From contig NZ_JAGYJH010000001.1 in the NCBI RefSeq assembly GCF_018402285.1, forward strand, positions 1 to 64,000: 64,000 nt of DNA. The letters are read 5' to 3'. The notes under the pieces were generated by a model. That model was not told the DNA's origin. It was given only the letters and a program-made list of their open reading frames with translations, and made no database searches. Made by a program: the position numbers and the translations under genes. This stretch comes from Hyphomonas sp. (GTDB taxonomy: Bacteria; Pseudomonadota; Alphaproteobacteria; Caulobacterales; Hyphomonadaceae). This document shows positions 9,201 to 63,867 of this stretch, piece after piece; positions within the stretch are counted from its first letter, which is position 1; the number at the start of each line of letters is the position of its first letter.

Positions 9201-10232
9201 TTATCCCTTCAGGAAGGCCAGCGCCTTGACCGCGTCCATCGGACGGGCAAAGGCATAGCCCTGCGCATGGTCAAAGCCGAGCGCACGCAGGCGGCTGGCG
9301 TCTTCGCGCTTCTCCACGCCCTCGGCGGTGGACGACATGCCGAGCCGGCTCGCCAGAAGCGTGATGGTGGAGAGGATCGTGTCGTTGCGGTGCTGGCCAA
9401 GGCGGCTGGTCAGTCCATGATCGATCTTTAGGCTGTCGAACGGCAGGTCCGCCAGCCAGGCAAAGGAGGAATGCCCGGTGCCGAAATCATCGAGCACCAG
9501 CCCGGCCCCGACTGCTTTCAGCGCCATCGCGGCGGCCAGCGACTGGGTCTCGTCGCGCAGCGCCGCCTGCTCGGTCAGCTCCATGCGCAGCGCCCGCTCG
9601 GGCAGCTTGTAGCCATTCATCAGCGCCTCGATCAGCGCTGGCAGCGTGCTCTTGGTCAGCTCCCGCGCAGTAAGGTTCACATGCATGAAGATGTCGTCGC
9701 GCTTTGCCCCCTCGCGCAGGTTCGAGAGGGTCTCAGCCGAGCGGATCAGCATGTTGGAGGCCAGCGCCTGGTCCTCATAGCGGCTCGGCGGGGCGTTCAC
9801 TTCCATCCCGTCCCAGCGCGCCAGCGCCTCGAAACCGACCACCCGGCCATCGCGCAGCGAGATGATCGGCTGGTAGACCGGCATCAGGTCCGGGCCGGGG
9901 CGCATGTCGCTCGGGTCGATCTCCGGGAAAGTCTCGCCCGACAGCAGCATGCCGCGCGCTTCACTGTCGGTCACGAAGGCGCCGACGAAATGGATGTCCC
10001 GTCCGTTGGAGAGGCGCAGGCCGCAGCGCACCGGACCGCCCTCGCCGGTGGAGAGCGCCTTGGCCAGCCGGCCCCGGCTGAGGCCCTCGACCATCTTCTC
10101 CAGCGCGTCGATGGACCAGTCCCCCGACAGGTCGGAGAGCAGGGTGCCGGTCGGCGCCTCGATGACGAGCCGTCCGGCCTCGCCGCGCCAGTGCCAGTTG
10201 CCCTGCGGCTCATTAGGGGTGGGTTTTGCCAT
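9201..10232 (-). CDS. EAL-domain cyclic-di-GMP phosphodiesterase
   Basis: 343-residue cytoplasmic protein with no membrane helices. Residues 1-110 form an N-terminal region of uncertain fold, possibly PAS-like (LSNGRDIHFVGAFVTDSEARG). The rest is an EAL domain with its signature EAL at 135-137. Catalytic and metal positions appear intact: VNL(TAREL), ELTEQ, LDDFGTG, KIDHG, AEGVEK, QGYAFARP. It is therefore expected to hydrolyse c-di-GMP. There is no GGDEF partner. It shares a strand and a 5-base gap with the SUFU gene downstream, and lies 13 bases from the GNAT gene upstream. Confidence 0.93.
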   Translation of the reverse strand: MAKPTPNEPQGNWHWRGEAGRLVIEAPTGTLLSDLSGDWSIDALEKMVEGLSRGRLAKALSTGEGGPVRCGLRLSNGRDIHFVGAFVTDSEARGMLLSGETFPEIDPSDMRPGPDLMPVYQPIISLRDGRVVGFEALARWDGMEVNAPPSRYEDQALASNMLIRSAETLSNLREGAKRDDIFMHVNLTARELTKSTLPALIEALMNGYKLPERALRMELTEQAALRDETQSLAAAMALKAVGAGLVLDDFGTGHSSFAWLADLPFDSLKIDHGLTSRLGQHRNDTILSTITLLASRLGMSSTAEGVEKREDASRLRALGFDHAQGYAFARPMDAVKALAFLKG

Positions 10233-10245
10233 GTGTTCTTGTTAC

Positions 10246-10815
10246 CTAGCGGCGAATATCCGCTCTGACGAGAGCGAAAAGGATATGGTCGCGGCGCTGC
10301 CCGGCAATTTCCAGATAAGCGCTCGCCCGCCCCTCTTCAGCAAATCCCGTGCCTTCCAGCACCCGGCGGGAGCGCTCATTCTCCGGAACGATGCCTGCTT
10401 CGATACGCGCCAGGTTAAGCATCGGAAACGCCCATGTGCACAGGGTTTGCACCGCTTCGCGCATATAGCCCTGCCCGGCATGGGGCTCGCCCATCCAGTA
10501 ACCAAGGCTGGCGCTGTTGGCCGGCCAGGGGCGCACCTGTGTCAGGGAGGCACCGCCCAGGAGGGCATTGTCGCTATGGCGGCGGATCAGGAACACATAG
10601 CCCGTCCCGGCTTTCCAGGCCTTGGTCCAGACATTCACGCGCCTCTGCCAGTCCTTCCGGCTCAGCGCGTCGCTGGGCCAGCTCGGCTCCCAGGGCTCCA
10701 GATAGGTGCGGCTTACCGCCCGCAGCGCCGCCCAGTCCTCATAGTCAGGCCGGCGCGCCGCCATCAGCGCCAGCCGCTCTGCCGGGATCACCGTATCGAG
10801 CGGCACATATGCCAT
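10246..10815 (-). CDS. GNAT family N-acetyltransferase (RimJ/RimL type)
   Basis: 189-residue acetyl-CoA-dependent acetyltransferase. The RimJ/RimL pattern is clear: RRPDYEDWAALRAVSRTYLEPWEP, then LGYWMGEPHAGQGYMREAVQTL as the acetyl-CoA-binding loop, and LARIEAGIVPENERSRRVLEGTGF near the C-terminus. The substrate may be a ribosomal protein N-terminus, but the family is broad. The ATG at 10815 lies 9 bases after the thrC stop with AGGCGG ahead of it, so the gene is in the thrC transcription unit. Confidence 0.9.
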   Translation of the reverse strand: MAYVPLDTVIPAERLALMAARRPDYEDWAALRAVSRTYLEPWEPSWPSDALSRKDWQRRVNVWTKAWKAGTGYVFLIRRHSDNALLGGASLTQVRPWPANSASLGYWMGEPHAGQGYMREAVQTLCTWAFPMLNLARIEAGIVPENERSRRVLEGTGFAEEGRASAYLEIAGQRRDHILFALVRADIRR

Positions 10816-10824
10816 GGCAGCCGC

Positions 10825-12207
10825 CTAGCCCGCGAACGCCGCGACGCGCGCGCGCACCGCCGCCGGGTCTGCCGGCATCCGTTCGAACACTTCGCCGCGG
10901 AGGCTCAACCCGGCGCAGCGGCTCGGCAGAGGCGCGTCCTCGCCGGTCGCTTCCCTGACGGTCTCGGGAAACTTCGTCGCCGCCGCCGTCGCCAGCACGA
11001 TGGTTGCCACCGCGTCCGACGGCTTCAGGCGCCGCGCCAGATGCGTGCCCACCGCCGTATGCGGACAGATCAGCCAGCCGGTTTCCTGCCGGAAGCGTTC
11101 CATCTCGGCCAGCGTATCGGCATTGCCGACAGACGCCGCCGTCAGGCCGGTGCAGGAGAGCCGCGTGCGGGCGGCCTCGGGAATGTCCACCTCGCCCGCC
11201 TGCGCATAGGTCTCATAGGTGCGCCGCACCGCGTCCGCATCCCGGCCAGTCACCTCAAACAGCAGCCGCTCGAAGTTCGACGGCACGGCAATGTCCATCG
11301 CCGGGCTTGGTGTCGCCACCGCCGCAGCCCGCGTCATCTTTCCGGTATTGAACACCCGGGCCAGCGTGTCGTTCTCGTTGACCGCGCACTGGATCTCGAG
11401 GCCGCCGGGCAGCAGGCCGCAGCGTGCTGCCACATAGCCTGCCAGCGCGTCACCCATATTGCCGCTCGGGACCACGAAGCGCAGCGCCCGGTGGCCAAGC
11501 TGCGCGCTGGCCGTGGCGTAATAGACTGACTGGGCCGCAATCCGCGCCCAGTTGATCGAGTTGACGCCCGAGAGGCCGATCCCGGCGGCGAACGCCTTGT
11601 CCGCGAACATCGACTTGACCATCGACTGGCAATCATCGAAGTCACCGTCCACGGCGATGTTGAGGACGTTCTCTGCCCCGGTCGTCGTCATGAACAGGCG
11701 CTGCACCGGCGAGACCCGCTCATGCGGATGCAGGATCACGAGGCGTACATTCTTCGCCCCGGCAAACGCGCCAGCGGCGGCCCCGCCGGTATCCCCGGAG
11801 GTCGCGCAGGTCACCGTCATCCGCTGGCCCGACAGGCCGAGGAGATAGTCATAGATCTGGCCGATGATCTGCATCGCCACATCCTTGAAGGCGAGCGTCG
11901 GCCCATGGTGCAGCTCCATAAGCCACAGGCCCGGCCCGGCCTGCGTCAGCGGCGCCACCGAGCGGTGGGCAAACCGGCCATAAGCCCGCTGGCAGAGGCG
12001 GGCCATGACATCCCTGGGGATCGCGTCCCCGGCAAAGGCGGAAAGAATGCGCGCAGCCGTCTCGGCATAAGGTTCACCCGCCTTCGCCGGCGCAATCTGC
12101 GGCCAGCTTTCGGGCACGTAGAGCCCGCCATCGGCAGCCAGGCCCGCCAGGCACGCCCCGGCAAAATCCACAGGCTCGGCCTGACCCCGGGTCGAAACAT
12201 ACTTCAC
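10825..12207 (-). CDS. thrC: Threonine synthase
   Basis: PLP enzyme converting O-phosphohomoserine to threonine. It has 460 residues, the longer bacterial type with an N-terminal domain (MKYVSTRGQAEPVDFAGACLAGLAADGG). The PLP lysine is Lys108 in HHGPTLAFKD. Other family segments are TCATSGDTGGAAAGAF and VPSGNMGDALAGY. Its ATG overlaps the surf1 stop by 4 bases (ATGA), so it is translationally coupled to the end of the cytochrome oxidase operon. hom is encoded 25 kb away. Confidence 0.96.
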   Translation of the reverse strand: MKYVSTRGQAEPVDFAGACLAGLAADGGLYVPESWPQIAPAKAGEPYAETAARILSAFAGDAIPRDVMARLCQRAYGRFAHRSVAPLTQAGPGLWLMELHHGPTLAFKDVAMQIIGQIYDYLLGLSGQRMTVTCATSGDTGGAAAGAFAGAKNVRLVILHPHERVSPVQRLFMTTTGAENVLNIAVDGDFDDCQSMVKSMFADKAFAAGIGLSGVNSINWARIAAQSVYYATASAQLGHRALRFVVPSGNMGDALAGYVAARCGLLPGGLEIQCAVNENDTLARVFNTGKMTRAAAVATPSPAMDIAVPSNFERLLFEVTGRDADAVRRTYETYAQAGEVDIPEAARTRLSCTGLTAASVGNADTLAEMERFRQETGWLICPHTAVGTHLARRLKPSDAVATIVLATAAATKFPETVREATGEDAPLPSRCAGLSLRGEVFERMPADPAAVRARVAAFAG

Positions 12208-12887
12208 TCACTCGTCTCCCGCCTGAAGCGCAGCCGCCCGCGCTGGTAATGGAAGGCCAGATACACACCGACAAGCGCCATGGCGAGGCCCCACCAGGTG
12301 ATCGCATAGCCAAAATGGCGCTCCGGCGGCAGGCGCTCGGCATCGCCCGGCTGGAGCAGAGGATTGGCGACCGGCTGAGGCGCCGGATCATCCATCCGCA
12401 TCAGCGTTTCCGGCTCGAACACGCGGGGGATCACCCGCGCTGCCTGATCTGCCGGCAGCGACGCGGCCAGCCGCTCGGGATCGAGCGCATAGTAGATGCC
12501 CTTCTCCGGCTCATCCGGCGTGGTGAAGGCATTGCGCCGCTGGGGCGGATGCCACAGGCCCCGCAGGGTCAGCGTCTCGGGAGCTTCGGCAACCCTTACC
12601 GGCGGCGGCTCGATCGAATAGGCAATGGAGACCGGCAGGAAGAGGATACCCTCGGCCGTTTCGAACGCGGTCACCTGGCGCCAGGCCGCGTCGCCATCAG
12701 CATAGGCATAAACGGTCCGCTCCGTGCCGGGCAGTGTTGTGCCGGCGAGCTCGGCCCAGTCGGGCGCCACGCCCTTCTGCGCCATCTTCTCCCCATACCG
12801 GGCCCATTGCCAGTTCCCGAACATGATCAGGATGGAAAAACAGATGATGCTCAGCACGGTCATCACGGGCAAAGGACGAAACATCAT
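12204..12887 (-). CDS. SURF1 family cytochrome oxidase biogenesis protein
   Basis: Inner-membrane assembly factor for haem A insertion into subunit I. The topology is typical: one N-terminal helix (VMTVLSIICFSILIMFGNWQWARY), a periplasmic domain with LRGLWHP and a closing helix (ITWWGLAMALVGVYLAFHYQRGR). About 227 residues from the MM start at 12887. The frame stays open to 13073, but that stretch is Pro/Arg-rich and unlike the family. No strong ribosome site is seen at 12887, so the start is moderately sure. It sits between ctaE and thrC, the usual alphaproteobacterial order. Confidence 0.88.
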   Translation of the reverse strand: MMFRPLPVMTVLSIICFSILIMFGNWQWARYGEKMAQKGVAPDWAELAGTTLPGTERTVYAYADGDAAWRQVTAFETAEGILFLPVSIAYSIEPPPVRVAEAPETLTLRGLWHPPQRRNAFTTPDEPEKGIYYALDPERLAASLPADQAARVIPRVFEPETLMRMDDPAPQPVANPLLQPGDAERLPPERHFGYAITWWGLAMALVGVYLAFHYQRGRLRFRRETSE

Positions 12888-57526: not shown

Positions 57527-58621
57527 TCAATCGCAGCTGTTGTCCCGCTCGCACGAGACGGTTTTGACGGGGCGCCCTTCGGCGAGGTCGCGCACCCAAT
57601 CGGCGAGTTGCACCCCTTCGGCCTCGGTCGAGTACATCACCCCGTATCGCAACGCGGTGTGCCCCATACCGGGCGCCGAGAATGTTCTTATGCCTGCAAT
57701 ATCGCGCGCCAGATCAGCCGAGTTGGCGGCCAGCAGAGCGCGGACAGGTTCGCCGGTTCCCAAAAGCCCCAGGAAGCTCTGCTGAACTTCGTCATCGACA
57801 TTGTCGAAGCGCGCCAGCTGTAAATCCGGATACCGCGCGGCCGTGACGCGGAAGAAGTCCTCAGTTGTCGCTGTTGCGCGCTCGACAGAGGCAAACTCCG
57901 GCCAGTCCGGAAGGGCTTCAAATGCGCCCCAGGCTTCAAGCACGCCGGAAATCCCGGGAGAGCGATAGCCGCCCGCGCCATCCGCCAGCTGGATCACCTC
58001 TGCCTGCGGATAATGTTCTGAGACAAGACCGGCATAGTAGGGCGAGGCAATGGCACCGGCGCTACCTCCCGTCACAAACACGCGTTCAGGCGCGGCCTGG
58101 TTGGCATACACCCATTCAAGCGCCGCCTGGACATTCGTCTTGCCCCGGTGATGGATCATCACATCGGCTCCAGCCGAGGTCTTATAGGTGGCGTCCCTGG
58201 CGCCGAGATGGGCATCCCCCGTGCAGTAAGGTACAAAAACCTGGGTCCAGCCGGCGAAGGGATTGCCGGCCGCCCTGTTGTCGAACACACCGTCCAGCTG
58301 GTCTGGCTGGTTGGACTCCATGTCTGCGAACGGGGTGTAGGGGGTAGGCTCGGTGGCCAGATCGCAAAGGTCACCGCTCCAGCAGGCCCCTCCCCCATTC
58401 AGGAAAATCATCACCCGCTCCGGATCACCCTGGCGCACATGAAAGCGAAAGGGTGTTCCCGTCGCGCAAAGCGTATCGCCGCCAGGCTCAATCAGGGTCC
58501 AGCCTGCAGCCTTTGCTTCTGCCAGCGGCGGCGCCTGCTGCACATCCGGACGGGCGCTGCAGCCAGCCGTCACCGCGCTCAGAACCAACCCTGCCAGCAA
58601 GGCGCCAGATCTTGATTTCAT
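57527..58621 (-). CDS. Pectinacetylesterase-family lipoprotein
   Basis: 364 residues, lipoprotein signal (LVLSAVTAGC, Cys near 21). The mature enzyme has the pectinacetylesterase/Notum pattern: RVMIFLNGGGACWSGDLCD, QVFVPYCTGDAHLGARDATY, and the nucleophile in VFVTGGSAGAIASPYYAGLV. The later catalytic His is likely in APGMGHTALRYG. The substrate in a marine-type bacterium is uncertain: an acetylated polysaccharide or another ester. The start is the ATG at 58621, chosen for the signal peptide. Confidence 0.87.
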   Translation of the reverse strand: MKSRSGALLAGLVLSAVTAGCSARPDVQQAPPLAEAKAAGWTLIEPGGDTLCATGTPFRFHVRQGDPERVMIFLNGGGACWSGDLCDLATEPTPYTPFADMESNQPDQLDGVFDNRAAGNPFAGWTQVFVPYCTGDAHLGARDATYKTSAGADVMIHHRGKTNVQAALEWVYANQAAPERVFVTGGSAGAIASPYYAGLVSEHYPQAEVIQLADGAGGYRSPGISGVLEAWGAFEALPDWPEFASVERATATTEDFFRVTAARYPDLQLARFDNVDDEVQQSFLGLLGTGEPVRALLAANSADLARDIAGIRTFSAPGMGHTALRYGVMYSTEAEGVQLADWVRDLAEGRPVKTVSCERDNSCD

Positions 58622-58703
58622 GCTACTTCCTCCCCAGGGTCTGCCGCCCTGCAGGAGGAAGCTTATCAGCTGGCCGGAGGCTGGCAATCGCCCCCCAGGG
58701 CGA

Positions 58704-59356: not shown

Positions 59357-59839
59357 ATGAGCGAAGAACTGTCGATATTTGATATCAAGATCCTTGAACA
59401 GCTCCAGAAGGACTGTTCAGTCTCCACCGTGGAGCTGGCAGACATTGTTGGCCTGTCCCAATCGCCCTGCTGGCGCCGTCTGCAAAGGCTGAAGGACGAG
59501 GGCTACATCCGCCAGCAGGTCGCAATCCTGGACCGCGAAAAGCTCGGCTACGGCCTGCACATCTTCGCCTATGTCAAAGTCGCGCGGCTGTCGGAGAAGG
59601 ACCGGGAAATCTTCCTTCGCAAGGTCCAGAACACGCCGGAAATCCTCGAATGCTATTCGATCTTCGGCGAGATGGACCTGATGATGAAGATCCTCGCCAA
59701 GTCGATGAAATGGTATCAGGAGTTCCTGATGGATTTCCTGCTGAACCTGCCGGGCGTGGAGAACGTCAATTCCACCGCGACCTTGGGCGAGCTGAAATCC
59801 ACCACGGCCATCCCCGTGCGAGGCAACATCGCCCTCTGA
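59357..59839 (+). CDS. Lrp/AsnC family transcriptional regulator
   Basis: 160 residues. N-terminal HTH (FDIKILEQLQKDCSVSTVELADIVGLSQSPCWRRLQRLKDEGYI) and C-terminal RAM ligand-binding domain (LHIFAYVKVARLSEKDREIFL ... PEILECYSIFGEMDLMMKILAKSM). SQSPCWRR is the typical recognition helix of this family. The effector is probably an amino acid. It converges with the amidohydrolase operon, which could be a target, but it also sits beside the truncated haemoglobin gene. Confidence 0.93.
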   Translation: MSEELSIFDIKILEQLQKDCSVSTVELADIVGLSQSPCWRRLQRLKDEGYIRQQVAILDREKLGYGLHIFAYVKVARLSEKDREIFLRKVQNTPEILECYSIFGEMDLMMKILAKSMKWYQEFLMDFLLNLPGVENVNSTATLGELKSTTAIPVRGNIAL

Positions 59840-59857: not shown

Positions 59858-62353
59858 CTACGGAGCGTCCACATAGGCCATGCACTCAACCTCTACTGAC
59901 GCGCCAAGCGCCAGACCATCTGCGCCAAATGCGCTGCGCGCGGGCATTCGGCCCTTGGTGAAGTAGCTGGCATACACCTCATTGAAGGCAGGCCAGTTGC
60001 TCATTTCGTCCAGCATGACGGTACATTTGAATATCTGGTCCATCCCGGCGCCGGCGGAAGCCGCTACACGTTTGACCGCCTCCATAACTTCCACGGCATG
60101 GTCTCGGAAATCGGCGGAAGGCGCAGGACCACCGCCCCCGATCTGCCCGGAAAGATAGAGCACATTGCCCACGCGGACAGCGCCGGAAAACGGCAACGTG
60201 TCCACGTCAACCGAAAGACCCTCGGCAATCATCGGATAGTGCTGGACAAAGTCCGGCACTGGCGCGGAAGCGGGCTTTGCGGCCACCGGCTCCGGCGCTG
60301 CTGGCGCTGGCTCAGCTGTTGAGCGCAGCATCTCCGGCGGCTCTGCAAACGGCTTGATGCTGAGCGCCTCATAGATTTCGGAAGGAAAATACACGTCTCC
60401 GTCCCGTACGACCATGCGCGGCGCGCGGATGGCGTTGATGTCCTCCAGCGGATTGCCAGAGAGCAGGATGAAGTCAGCGAGCTTACCAGGCTCTACAGCC
60501 CCAAGCGTATCGGAATAGCCCATATAGTCGATCGGGTTCCACGCCGCGATGCGCAATGCTTCGGCGGCCGGAATGCCCGCCAGGGTATAGAGCTCGATCT
60601 CACGGTGAACCGTGAACCCCGTGCCATCATCCGTGCCCGGCAGGATCGTGACGCCCGCCTCATGCAGCATCTTCAGCGTTTCCAGAACGCGCCGGAACCC
60701 TTCCTGATAGGCTTCGTCCTCCGCGGCATTTGCGAGGGAAACAAAGCTGCGGCGCCGATAGCGCTGATAGGCAATCGGCATATGGTCGAGATAGGCCTTG
60801 TCGCCCACAGCAACCGTGCCTGCCCGGCTCAGCATGAGCCGCTCCAGGATCACCGCGGTCGGATCAATGGCCGTTTCGTTCTCCTGCATGCGGCGTACAG
60901 TTGCCTGAACCTTCTCAGATTGCAGGTCCAGCGTTGCGCCCCGCGCCATGCCCGTCAGGCGCAGCGGTGTTCGGGTATCTTCGGTAATCTCCAGCAGCCA
61001 GCCGAGCATCAGCTGGTTGATATGCGTCACCTCATCAAAGCCAGCGTCTATCATAGCGTCCGCATTCGTGAACGCCGGAATATGGCCGATCATCCGCATG
61101 CCACGCGAATGGGCCCGCTCGGCAACCGCAGGCATCCAGGCCGGGTTCATGGAGTTATAGGATTTGACATAGCCATATCCCCGTTCCGCATACCAATCGA
61201 CTGCCGCCAGTGCCTCTTCTTCCGTAGCAGCGATAATGCCGTGCCGCGCCGAGAACGGGCTGCGCCCTTCCAAAAACCCCGCCGGCGTGATGCGCGGCCC
61301 GGCCACCCGGTCTTCTGCCATCCGCGCCAGCAGGCCGGCCAGGAAGGTGTTCTCATTGCCCATGTCCCGGGTCGATGTCACACCAGCCGCTAGGTAGTAG
61401 AGCCCGGAATTGGCGGACGCATGTGAGTGCATATCGGCAAGCCCCGGCATCAGCGTGTCGCCTGCCCCATCAAACACTGCGCCTTCGCCTTCGGGCAGGA
61501 CGCCCGGCGCGTAAGGCGTGACGCTGGCAATCATGTTGCCGCTGACGGTGATCACAGACGGCGCGCCAAGCGTTCCGGTCTGCACGTCCAGAACACGGAC
61601 GTTCACGATGGAGTAGGGCGCATCATAGCGGTGCAGCAGGCGCTGAGCCAGCTCCTCCGTCCGCGCCGCATTGAGCTCACGCGCCACCGCCTGCAAGGGC
61701 TGGACACTCTCCTCAAATCCCTTGCGGACAACCGCAGAAGATTCGGAGAAAGTCGCGAAGAGAGAGCCATCTTCCTCCATCGCGAGCAGGCTCGGGCTCA
61801 TGTCAATTCCCGAGAGGCGATAGACGGCCACAGTCTTGTCCGCCGCGCCAGAGGGCACTACCACATTCTCCACCTTTTCCAGCCGGATCTCGCCGCCCGG
61901 CAGCACAGGCATCTGCTGGTCTGCATCCTTCAGGAGGGCGCGCGCATAAACATAATCCGCCCACGGGCTGCCGTCATTGACGGCATAAAGCGCAGGCTCG
62001 GAGAGATCCTGCCGCCCGGAATCTGCCTGGCTCAGCCAGCGCGCCACGCCCTCATTGACCGCAAAGGATTCTTCAACCCCCGCCCCCATGAGCGAGGTGC
62101 CAACAATCAGCCAGCTGACGGGAACGCCCGCTGCGTCAACCGTCAGCTCTTCGCGGTGCTTCGGCCCGCGCCCGTTGCTGTCGACGTAGTAATCAACAAC
62201 GGCCGATGGCCCGGCCTCCGACACTTTCAGATGCCCGACAGACTCGCCATTCTGGATGATGGCGTACTCAAACCGCTCCGTCTGAGCCGCTGCCAGGGGC
62301 AAGGCAGAAGCCAGAAGCGACGATGCCAGAAGGGCTGCCAGGCGATACATCAT
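59858..62353 (-). CDS. Exported amidohydrolase fused to a C-terminal RidA domain
   Basis: 831 residues. There is a signal peptide (LLASSLLASALPLAAAQ) and an N-terminal domain to about residue 240 of unrecognised fold. The metal-dependent amidohydrolase domain (about 245-680) carries all ligands of the Xaa-Pro/imidazolonepropionase-like group: MHSHAS, VKSYNS (Lys), IGHIP, VTHINQ and PGTDDG. A Pro/Ala linker (EPAPAAPEPVAAKPASAP) joins a RidA/YjgF domain (about 705-831) whose active-site Arg is in MPARSAFG and Glu in VEVECMAY. The substrate may be an N-acyl or Pro-peptide whose product is an imine. Its start overlaps the S10 gene stop by 4 bases. Confidence 0.9.
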   Translation of the reverse strand: MMYRLAALLASSLLASALPLAAAQTERFEYAIIQNGESVGHLKVSEAGPSAVVDYYVDSNGRGPKHREELTVDAAGVPVSWLIVGTSLMGAGVEESFAVNEGVARWLSQADSGRQDLSEPALYAVNDGSPWADYVYARALLKDADQQMPVLPGGEIRLEKVENVVVPSGAADKTVAVYRLSGIDMSPSLLAMEEDGSLFATFSESSAVVRKGFEESVQPLQAVARELNAARTEELAQRLLHRYDAPYSIVNVRVLDVQTGTLGAPSVITVSGNMIASVTPYAPGVLPEGEGAVFDGAGDTLMPGLADMHSHASANSGLYYLAAGVTSTRDMGNENTFLAGLLARMAEDRVAGPRITPAGFLEGRSPFSARHGIIAATEEEALAAVDWYAERGYGYVKSYNSMNPAWMPAVAERAHSRGMRMIGHIPAFTNADAMIDAGFDEVTHINQLMLGWLLEITEDTRTPLRLTGMARGATLDLQSEKVQATVRRMQENETAIDPTAVILERLMLSRAGTVAVGDKAYLDHMPIAYQRYRRRSFVSLANAAEDEAYQEGFRRVLETLKMLHEAGVTILPGTDDGTGFTVHREIELYTLAGIPAAEALRIAAWNPIDYMGYSDTLGAVEPGKLADFILLSGNPLEDINAIRAPRMVVRDGDVYFPSEIYEALSIKPFAEPPEMLRSTAEPAPAAPEPVAAKPASAPVPDFVQHYPMIAEGLSVDVDTLPFSGAVRVGNVLYLSGQIGGGGPAPSADFRDHAVEVMEAVKRVAASAGAGMDQIFKCTVMLDEMSNWPAFNEVYASYFTKGRMPARSAFGADGLALGASVEVECMAYVDAP

Positions 62354-63867
62354 GGGTTCATCTCCTGATTTTTGTCTGCGCCTGCTACTGTAGCAGCGGC
62401 AATGAAGGCATGAAGCCGGTCCGCAATGCCCGCTTTCAGCGTGTCTTCGTCATAAGGGGAATGCCCGCCGGGCAGCGCGACCAGTTCTACTCGCTTCTGA
62501 GGCAGATCATTATGGGTCAGCGCATACTGCGTACCCAGCAGCGTTGTCGCAAGATCGCGGTATCCGGCAAAAACCAGAAGGTTCACGCCGGCCTTCTCCT
62601 GCATGAAACGGGACAGGACCGGCGCCGAGCTCACATAAAACCTGGGAGACTTGGCAGACGCCCGCCAGTCCCACGCAAAATTGGCGTCCAGATTGAGCGA
62701 GCGATATTCCTCGCCTGCCGGCACGCCCGCGACCTGCGCAAGATACTCCGCGATGTCCTGAGATACGATGACATTCGACCGCCCGAGCCCCAGGGACGGG
62801 TCATTCGCAGCAGCCGGCCGGTGATCATTCACCTCCGGCGACGGCAAGGGGGATGTCACGGCGGTGTTCAGACGGCTGACGAGCAAGCCATCCTGCGCCA
62901 GAACATTTTCCAGGAAAAACTGGATATCAATGCGCAGGTCTGCACCAGCCACATCTTCTGCCGAAAGCCCGGTCATCCCGGCAATCTTAGCGGCCACTGC
63001 CGCCTTCTCATCGGCCCCGATCAGGTCACCCTTCTGCAGCGCCAGCAGGTAATCGCTCTGCGCATAGGCGCGCGCAATCTCCCAGCTTTCCGCCTCGGTT
63101 TCGGCTTCAATATCCGACCGCCCAAACCGCCAGGCCGTCGCCGCCATCGTCGGCAGCGCAAACACATGGCCAAGATCGGTCTGCCCCGCCCCGCTGTCGA
63201 GCGCGGGCGAGACCATCACAAGCCCCCGCACATCCAGATCGCCGACCTTGGCGACCAGATTGGCCAGCCGTGTCCCGCCATAGCTCTGCCCGGCGAGCAC
63301 CAGCGGCGACCCGGTGCGGTCATTCTCTTCCAGCCAGACGCGGATGAAACGGTTCACCGCGTCCACATCTCCCTCAATACCGAGATAGCGCGCCTGTCCT
63401 TCTTCGGAGTTTGCCCGGCTGAAACCGGTTGCCACAGGATCAATGAAGACAAGATCTGCTGACCTCAGGAGGGTGTACGGATTATCCGGAAAGGTCCTGT
63501 CTTTCCCCCGCGCCTTGGGTCCGATGGAGAAATGGAGCGGCGAGGAAGATGCCCCCGGACCGCCATTGAACAGGAACATCACTGGCCGCGCCACAACATC
63601 ACAGTCGCAGTCCATAAGGTAGGCCGTGGCCGAAATGGTCGCGCTGTCGCGCTCTTCGGGATCCAGCTTCAGCGCGCTCCACGCCACCGCGTATTCGACC
63701 GGCGGCAATCCCGCCCGGTCCTGCACGCTCTGGTCCGGGCCTTGCGCAAATATGGTCCAGGCGTCAGGCGCAGCAGCAACGGGCGCTCCATTGGCGGCGC
63801 ATCCGGCGAGAATACCGAGGATCGCGGCGGCAGAGAGCGCCTTCTTGAGTCGAGACAGTTTCATCAT
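62350..63867 (-). CDS. S10 family serine carboxypeptidase-like lipoprotein
   Basis: 505 residues, lipoprotein signal (AAAILGILAGC). Serine carboxypeptidase fold: FLFNGGPGASSSPLHFSIGP as the oxyanion region, the nucleophile in LAGQSYGGTRLANL, the catalytic Asp in FAGYRDLATT and His in LPGGHSPYDED. It would cut C-terminal residues from peptides outside the cytoplasm. It is translationally coupled to the amidohydrolase-RidA gene (ATGA overlap), so the two likely act in sequence on one class of substrates. Two adjacent ATGs (63867/63864) can serve as start. Confidence 0.92.
   Translation of the reverse strand: MMKLSRLKKALSAAAILGILAGCAANGAPVAAAPDAWTIFAQGPDQSVQDRAGLPPVEYAVAWSALKLDPEERDSATISATAYLMDCDCDVVARPVMFLFNGGPGASSSPLHFSIGPKARGKDRTFPDNPYTLLRSADLVFIDPVATGFSRANSEEGQARYLGIEGDVDAVNRFIRVWLEENDRTGSPLVLAGQSYGGTRLANLVAKVGDLDVRGLVMVSPALDSGAGQTDLGHVFALPTMAATAWRFGRSDIEAETEAESWEIARAYAQSDYLLALQKGDLIGADEKAAVAAKIAGMTGLSAEDVAGADLRIDIQFFLENVLAQDGLLVSRLNTAVTSPLPSPEVNDHRPAAANDPSLGLGRSNVIVSQDIAEYLAQVAGVPAGEEYRSLNLDANFAWDWRASAKSPRFYVSSAPVLSRFMQEKAGVNLLVFAGYRDLATTLLGTQYALTHNDLPQKRVELVALPGGHSPYDEDTLKAGIADRLHAFIAAATVAGADKNQEMNP

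Follow-up and report, generated by a model that had tools for sequence, protein, structure and literature searches.

In a 64,000-nucleotide stretch of a Hyphomonas sp. genome (NCBI RefSeq assembly GCF_018402285.1, contig NZ_JAGYJH010000001.1, positions 1 to 64,000; this whole stretch is hereafter the window), a putatively exported, metal-dependent amidohydrolase is fused to a RidA domain and is encoded directly downstream of an S10 serine carboxypeptidase. RidA hydrolyzes enamines and imines, and pyridoxal phosphate (PLP) enzymes act on free amines; the question raised by this locus is what a RidA domain would be doing outside the cytoplasm and which enzyme would supply its substrate. Those parts of the RidA literature that were accessible tie enamine and imine stress to metabolic PLP enzymes and do not discuss the export of RidA.

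We propose that the locus belongs to a periplasmic peptide-catabolic pathway in which an exported PLP enzyme yields an enamine or imine and an exported RidA hydrolyzes it, a proposal to which we give close to an even chance. In its more specific form, which we consider possible rather than probable, part of RidA metabolism would be periplasmic. Reactive enamines would arise there through a PLP enzyme exported by twin-arginine translocation (Tat) and would be removed by a dedicated lineage of RidA, joined to the amidohydrolase in Hyphomonadaceae and a separate protein in other groups; this lineage would also guard a PLP cofactor that has no replacement in that compartment. The sequences themselves establish the domains and catalytic positions, the gene order and its conservation, the selection acting on RidA, and the kinship of the RidAs found in this cluster.

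Domains, selection, and distribution of the fusion

The fusion is a protein of 831 residues encoded by an open reading frame (ORF) on the minus strand (59858..62353). Its RidA domain (residues 720-827, 59873..60196) matches Ribonuc_L-PSP (PF01042) at 78.2 bits, against a cutoff of 27.3 bits, confirming what a sequence-only reading of this DNA had noticed. That reading had also called the catalytic Arg and Glu intact, and both are present, as R806 and E821, and invariant in all 19 aligned cluster RidAs; they stand 15 residues apart, like Arg105 and Glu120, the catalytic residues of RidA according to PMC4433059. The RidA part, whose possible lack of a folded active site had been raised against the idea, is predicted to fold with moderate confidence, the model having a RidA-like order of strands and helices with predicted local distance difference test (pLDDT) scores of 62 to 88 by block. 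The cutoff of the TIGR00004 subfamily (106.25 bits) is reached neither by the fusion (77 bits) nor by a standalone Shewanella RidA (91 bits), and because of this score the domain is termed RidA-type and not a TIGR00004 member.

Ahead of the RidA domain runs a Pro/Ala-rich, apparently disordered linker (residues 681-719, 60197..60313), recognized by its pLDDT, which is below 50 across residues 681-722, and by its ratio of nonsynonymous to synonymous substitution (dN/dS). Median dN/dS among five Hyphomonas fusions rises from 0.029 in RidA to 0.110 in the amidohydrolase domain, 0.139 in the N-terminal beta domain, 0.264 in the linker, and 0.274 in the signal region. RidA is the most constrained segment of the fusion and is under strong purifying selection; it therefore has a role that sequence change would spoil. 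A value of 0.029, from these five sequences, rules out a decaying passenger, and an uninterrupted fused frame in 12 genomes rules out an assembly artifact.

The amidohydrolase domain (residues 241-680, 60314..61633) matches Amidohydro_1 at 67.6 bits over residues 300-651. Six residues (H309, H311, K397, H424, H444, and D575) are unchanged in all 39 aligned amidohydrolase rows; going by what is generally known of the superfamily, we take these HxH, Lys, His, His, and Asp positions to be the probable ligands of a binuclear metal center, a pattern that the fusion would thus share with binuclear amidohydrolases. The best NCBIfam model, for Xaa-Pro dipeptidase (NF051886), scores 91 bits, far below its cutoff of 500.

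The first 240 residues had been described as unassigned, and this description holds only insofar as the window's sequence matches no Pfam family. A putative Sec-type signal peptide comes first (residues 1-24, 62282..62353, boundary set by eye); residues 1-21 have pLDDT below 50, and the N terminus is hydrophobic in the eight fused homologues compared. The beta domain that follows (residues 25-240, 61634..62281) is no orphan, as the region occurs in all 80 amidohydrolase loci examined in other bacteria (see below). AlphaFold2 models residues 24-245 with a mean pLDDT of 95.5, and Foldseek relates this model to chains of 6ntr, a beta-barrel-like DUF1849 protein (E values of 3.3e-4 to 1.1e-3; template modeling [TM] scores by query of 0.44-0.48), pointing to an EipB/DUF1849-like fold. 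Two of the three matches with E<=0.001 are 6ntr chains; the best match is 9fqr_Xh (TM score of 0.54), a chain from a sperm microtubule complex.

The fusion was found in 6 of 61 genomes (the window's and 60 relatives) and, at full length, in 12 of 398 genomes of the order, a lower bound at E<=1e-150; these belong to a single family (six in the window's genus, four in g287, and one each in g289 and g290). A search of 385 genomes of the class at E<=1e-60 returned none beyond the window's own. Around the fusion, gene order is strongly kept: an S10 gene lies directly upstream in 12/12 fused genomes, as do, in the vicinity, a divergent PLP gene, a TonB receptor gene, and a gene of the OCD family (12/12 each, the OCD gene being split in the window's genome), and a convergent Lrp gene occupies the same place in 11, the twelfth locus being truncated by a contig end. 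The 4-base overlap by which the peptidase and fusion genes had been reported to be joined is real (ATGA, 62350..62353, minus strand) and is retained in 11 of the 12, with a gap of 11 bases in G516. Pairing with the peptidase and the signal peptide, which relatives might have lacked, is conserved in both respects. All four fusions of g287 (Henriciella type; L257-L260, three of them on the same contigs as L063, L064, and L069) have, judged by eye, an additional hydrophobic helix C-terminal to RidA; taken with the signal peptide, this helix points to a periplasmic orientation of RidA.

In G002, G013, and G029, all of the Hyphomonas type, the locus is the same but RidA is missing; in G002, the locus runs into a contig end. 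Two changes on the amidohydrolase tree are enough to explain this pattern, the simplest pair being a gain at the root of this group and a single loss. The window's genome also encodes an unfused paralogue of the beta-domain amidohydrolase (G000:C2 20391-22340, locus L055; 44% identity) beside a carboxyl transferase gene, and unfused proteins resembling it are common across the order.

A PLP enzyme as the putative source of the imine

Continuing the contig beyond the window are, besides the PLP gene, a further S10 gene, the OCD/mu-crystallin gene, a third S10 gene, and genes for a TonB receptor and an APC amino-acid permease. The PLP gene (G000:C1 64002-65297), divergent to the S10-fusion pair, encodes a class V enzyme (Aminotran_5, 130.7 bits) with a twin-arginine N terminus. 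Across 24 aligned PLP enzymes, the twin arginine (R20 R21) and K257 are each kept at >=95%; we take the former to be a Tat signal and the latter to be the PLP lysine. The top PDB matches are SufS cysteine desulfurases; no desulfurase-type cysteine was seen among the conserved positions of the 24-row alignment, and no NCBIfam cutoff was reached among the 25 of 32 matches listed. The enzyme may or may not be a cysteine desulfurase. The OCD gene (G000:C1 66882-67842; L040 12883-13843) is in two overlapping frames here and in a single frame in the other 11 fused genomes, so that the copy in the window's genome is a pseudogene or contains a sequencing error. The OCD protein of a near relative (G016) has as its best PDB match thiomorpholine-carboxylate dehydrogenase, at 156 bits, followed by mu-crystallin, both presumably ketimine reductases.

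These genes suggest the following scheme, in which we infer the compartment, the substrate, the PLP enzyme as imine source, and the activity of RidA. S10 and amidohydrolase enzymes release amino acids from the carboxyl ends of peptides or from N-acyl groups. A TonB receptor would import a peptide, or a compound resembling one, into the periplasm, where S10 carboxypeptidases (and an M61 peptidase in other lineages) together with the amidohydrolase would free an amino acid; the Tat-exported class V enzyme would act on this amino acid, with an enamine or imine as product or by-product, which the RidA domain would hydrolyze to a keto acid and ammonia. RidA would also protect the PLP enzyme, whose cofactor probably reaches the periplasm only within folded protein. 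The permease would carry products inward, and the OCD/mu-crystallin-type reductase could reduce imines in the cytoplasm. An exported RidA would have been fused once to the amidohydrolase in Hyphomonadaceae, perhaps for co-export and a fixed ratio.

Precedents for individual steps are published: PvdN and PtaA are exported by Tat, folded and carrying PLP (PMC6206403), free 2-aminoacrylate attacks PLP (PMC12172467), and the clustering of RidA genes with those of PLP enzymes is a known theme (PMC4433059). Given periplasmic PLP enzymes and this attack, a periplasmic PLP enzyme that makes enamines would need RidA on the same side of the membrane.

The distribution of the gene set was assessed in 80 loci, the best of 365 relatives ranked by similarity to the window's protein. 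Counts refer to the fetched locus; some absences, 16 of the 80 being <18 kb, are due to contig ends. ORFs were called by a simple script, and signal peptides were judged by hydropathy and by eye. Much of the set recurs across Alpha- and Gammaproteobacteria: S10 genes are present in 65 loci, OCD in 59, M61 in 53 (its Pfam match slightly over the cutoff in the two members checked), the TonB receptor in 47, Lrp in 44, the PLP gene in 43, and the permease in 41. The hydropathy script passed 29 of the 43 PLP proteins, misjudging Tat signals and wrong starts, and the twin arginine was counted on the alignment instead; the 15 of 69 OCD matches that it flagged as hydrophobic were put down to noise, caused by misplaced starts or internal segments. 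In the 385 class genomes, strong PLP matches (E<=1e-50) and strong amidohydrolase matches (E<=1e-170) fall in the same three genomes, two of which are of one genus, and there is no overlap among the weaker matches (five further genomes for PLP and two for the amidohydrolase).

RidA occurs in 18 of the 80 loci, fused in 8 and standalone in 10, and all 10 standalone proteins have a signal peptide-like N terminus. Six of these 10 genes directly follow the PLP gene (four in Nitrospirillum, one in Shewanella, and one in Xanthomonas; three genera), two directly follow the amidohydrolase gene (both Sphingopyxis-type loci), one follows the permease gene (L108), and one lies about 4 kb past the amidohydrolase gene (L080). 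This arrangement speaks against treating the amidohydrolase as the necessary source of the imine. We favor the PLP enzyme because of its adjacency to RidA in three genera, its Tat signal, and the accompanying reductase. The Shewanella locus has a second gene of the Rid superfamily between the amidohydrolase and PLP genes (L081 12025-12543; PF14588, 47.7 bits); no signal is evident by eye in its product, and phmmer finds relatives of it in two Xanthomonas loci (L105 12010-12540, and L121, inside 10201-12462), PF14588 membership having been checked for the Shewanella protein only.

The RidAs of the cluster also appear to share a descent. Among the 61 RidA domains placed in a tree, those from the cluster (19 in all, 9 fused and 10 standalone) group in one clade (support of 89/95, unstarred) that spans Hyphomonadaceae, Azospirillaceae, the Sphingopyxis type, Xanthomonas, and Shewanella; because it spans these distant groups, RidA may have moved together with the cluster. 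Inside it, the nine fused domains are a single clade (99/90), and both sit within a larger clade (97/92) whose 36 rows include 34 judged exported. The alignment has few columns, which drew a warning from the tool, and the fused domains of G016, G516, and G581 were left out.

Several observations weigh against the proposed pathway. RidA is absent from the fetched stretch of 62 of the 80 loci, from the fetched clusters of G074 and G206, which have both the amidohydrolase and PLP genes with strong matches, and from the vicinity of ten Sphingomonas loci, nine of them with the PLP gene. Within Hyphomonadaceae, RidA seems optional, its apparent loss affecting three orthologues of the Hyphomonas type; in one of these genomes (G013, Hyphomonas beringensis), which has the cluster, a genome-wide search with the RidA profile gave no match at E<=1e-6. 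Two others (G002 and G029) carry a lipoprotein-like RidA, so that RidA acting in trans could stand in there. Among loci of >=18 kb, 15 of the 16 that have RidA also have the PLP gene, compared with 26 of the 48 that lack RidA (Fisher P = 0.0056); of the seven tests of this kind, the other six gave P values of 0.45 for OCD, 0.058 for M61, 0.54 for Lrp, 0.13 for the TonB receptor, 0.092 for the permease, and 0.72 for S10, and M61, the TonB receptor, and the permease are rarer in loci with RidA than in loci without it. Collapsed by genus, the count for RidA and the PLP gene becomes 8 of 9 versus 12 of 18 (P = 0.36), which therefore demonstrates no association beyond kinship, and the co-occurrence was dropped as statistical proof. 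Class V PLP enzymes catalyze many reactions, some without free imines, and the export of the cluster proteins was read by eye.

Further counterevidence comes from a reverse search starting from RidA in the 385 class genomes, with a profile built on cluster RidAs, whose ranking favors them. Forty loci were fetched (9 of them <18 kb): 20 high-scoring loci, comprising the 19 best-scoring places after the window's own and one lower, and 20 lower-scoring loci picked by hand. At the thresholds used for the 80-locus count, cluster genes are near RidA in none of the 40; weaker matches include a PLP protein at 67 bits (L203), an OCD protein at 126 bits (L192), and others at about 30 bits. In 13 of the 20 high-scoring loci, all from Alphaproteobacteria (L170-L176, L178-L181, L183, and L188), RidA looks exported, with a signal peptide-like or lipoprotein-like N terminus, and cluster genes are missing. 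Exported RidA thus appears to be widespread and, in this sample, unlinked to the cluster. By eye, the neighbors of ten exported noncluster RidAs share no common theme; the exception is L181 and L183, which belong to one family and have the same two genes beside RidA. With this search, export of RidA can no longer be taken to prove a special pathway. The inference in the sequence-only reading, that the pathway itself yields an imine outside the cytoplasm, fares unevenly: possible imine chemistry lies nearby, in the Tat-type PLP enzyme and the mu-crystallin-like reductase, but an exported RidA alone is no sign of it, since such RidAs occur without the cluster genes.

From the same results arises the most durable alternative, that RidA is a general guard of the periplasm with a housekeeping or chaperone-like function and that its fusion is incidental and tied to no pathway. 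It would accommodate the commonness of exported RidA in Alphaproteobacteria without the cluster, the nonsignificant co-occurrence by genus, and a lipoprotein-like RidA besides the fusion in four of the six fused genomes searched (G008, G016, G023, and G034; none in the window's genome or in G030), a finding that counts against the proposed pathway as well. It fits poorly, however, with a clade of cluster RidAs that extends over two classes, and with the presence of RidA at 18 of 80 cluster loci as opposed to cluster genes at 0 of 40 RidA-sampled loci; we consider it unlikely.

A second alternative, which we judge to be distinctly unlikely, moves the source to the amidohydrolase, which would itself release an enamine from N-acyl dehydroamino acids or similar amides, the tethered RidA finishing the reaction; this gives a specific form to the idea of the sequence-only reading. 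The covalent fusion in 12 genomes, the two Sphingopyxis-type loci in which RidA directly follows the amidohydrolase gene, and the intact metal-ligand positions all point in this direction, but RidA follows the PLP gene in six loci, most amidohydrolase loci have no RidA in the stretch fetched, and three Hyphomonadaceae loci retain the amidohydrolase without it. The fusion itself and the Sphingopyxis-type loci are accordingly weighed lower than the evidence for the PLP enzyme. A purely structural role, in which a trimer of RidA domains (Rid proteins being typically trimeric; PMC4433059) assembles the amidohydrolase into a larger complex without catalysis, as the flexible linker would allow, is very improbable in view of the invariance of Arg and Glu in 19/19 rows, the position of RidA as the most constrained segment, and the standalone RidAs within the same clade.

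The peptidase, the regulator, and a flanking gene

The S10 serine carboxypeptidase paired with the fusion (505 amino acids, 62350..63867, minus strand) matches Peptidase_S10 (PF00450) at 57.3 bits, against a cutoff of 21.9 bits, over 119 of 420 profile positions, and has PDB matches to carboxypeptidase Y. S195, D438, and H469, which we take from carboxypeptidase Y motifs to be the catalytic triad, are invariant in all eight aligned S10 rows. Both products of the gene pair had been described as exported hydrolases; apparent signals are present on both, but the label "secreted" does not suit the peptidase. Its N-terminal signal ends, by eye, in LAGC, which we read as a lipobox-like motif, so the enzyme is probably a lipoprotein anchored in the envelope. 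An AGGAG stretch lies a little upstream of the start codon of the fusion.

On the other side of the fusion, the convergent Lrp-type regulator that had been pointed out is borne out as an Lrp/AsnC-type gene (59357..59839, plus strand) with both HTH_24 and AsnC_trans_reg above their Pfam cutoffs; 18 bases separate its ORF from that of the fusion. A pectinacetylesterase-like protein (PF03283) is encoded at 57527-58687 on the minus strand, and four other Hyphomonas genomes have a homologue of it close to the fused locus (L041, L042, L044, and L045).

Novelty and comparison with known systems

The component families are known; their arrangement and compartment look new. Judged by titles and the beginnings of abstracts, searches of one open-access library, some of them aimed elsewhere, turned up no account of an exported RidA, of a RidA-amidohydrolase fusion, or of this gene set. 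PMC4433059 names fusions of one Rid domain to another and looked for fusions with other families, and PMC9537276 describes OngD, a RidA protein needed in a chitin-acid pathway, the pathway being cytoplasmic according to its authors. Were the proposed pathway true, enamine damage and repair would extend to the periplasm, where PLP is thought to arrive inside folded proteins, and two gene families so far without an assignment, the exported class V enzymes and the beta-domain amidohydrolases, would become one testable pathway. Exported RidAs without such neighbors are a separate question.

Each part of the system has a known counterpart from which it departs. Like PvdN and PtaA, Tat-exported PLP enzymes of pyoverdine tailoring, the cluster PLP enzyme bears a Tat-type signal, and it has the putative PLP lysine; in contrast to PvdN, it adjoins peptidases and not siderophore genes, and it scores 26.9 bits with the PvdN model (NF051467), whose cutoff is 650. 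The comparison was made with PvdN. Mu-crystallin, a ketimine reductase of the OCD family, is among the closest PDB likenesses of a near relative's OCD protein, whereas the gene considered here sits in a bacterial cluster and is split in the window's assembly. Residues 25-240 of the fusion resemble in fold the DUF1849 envelope protein of Brucella (6ntr) that we take to be EipB, but identity is about 10%, the TM score is below 0.5, and the fusion's beta domain has no Pfam match. With the Xaa-Pro dipeptidase 2qs8, the Cc2672 L-arginine carboxypeptidase 3mtw, and the amidohydrolase 8ihq, the fusion has the amidohydrolase domain in common, the region matched by phmmer being mostly the C-terminal part of that domain; unlike them, it has an additional EipB-like N-terminal domain and a C-terminal RidA. 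Finally, the fusion domain has the fold and the catalytic Arg and Glu of RidA imine deaminase (Rid family, PF01042) but differs from known RidA in being putatively exported and joined to an amidohydrolase.

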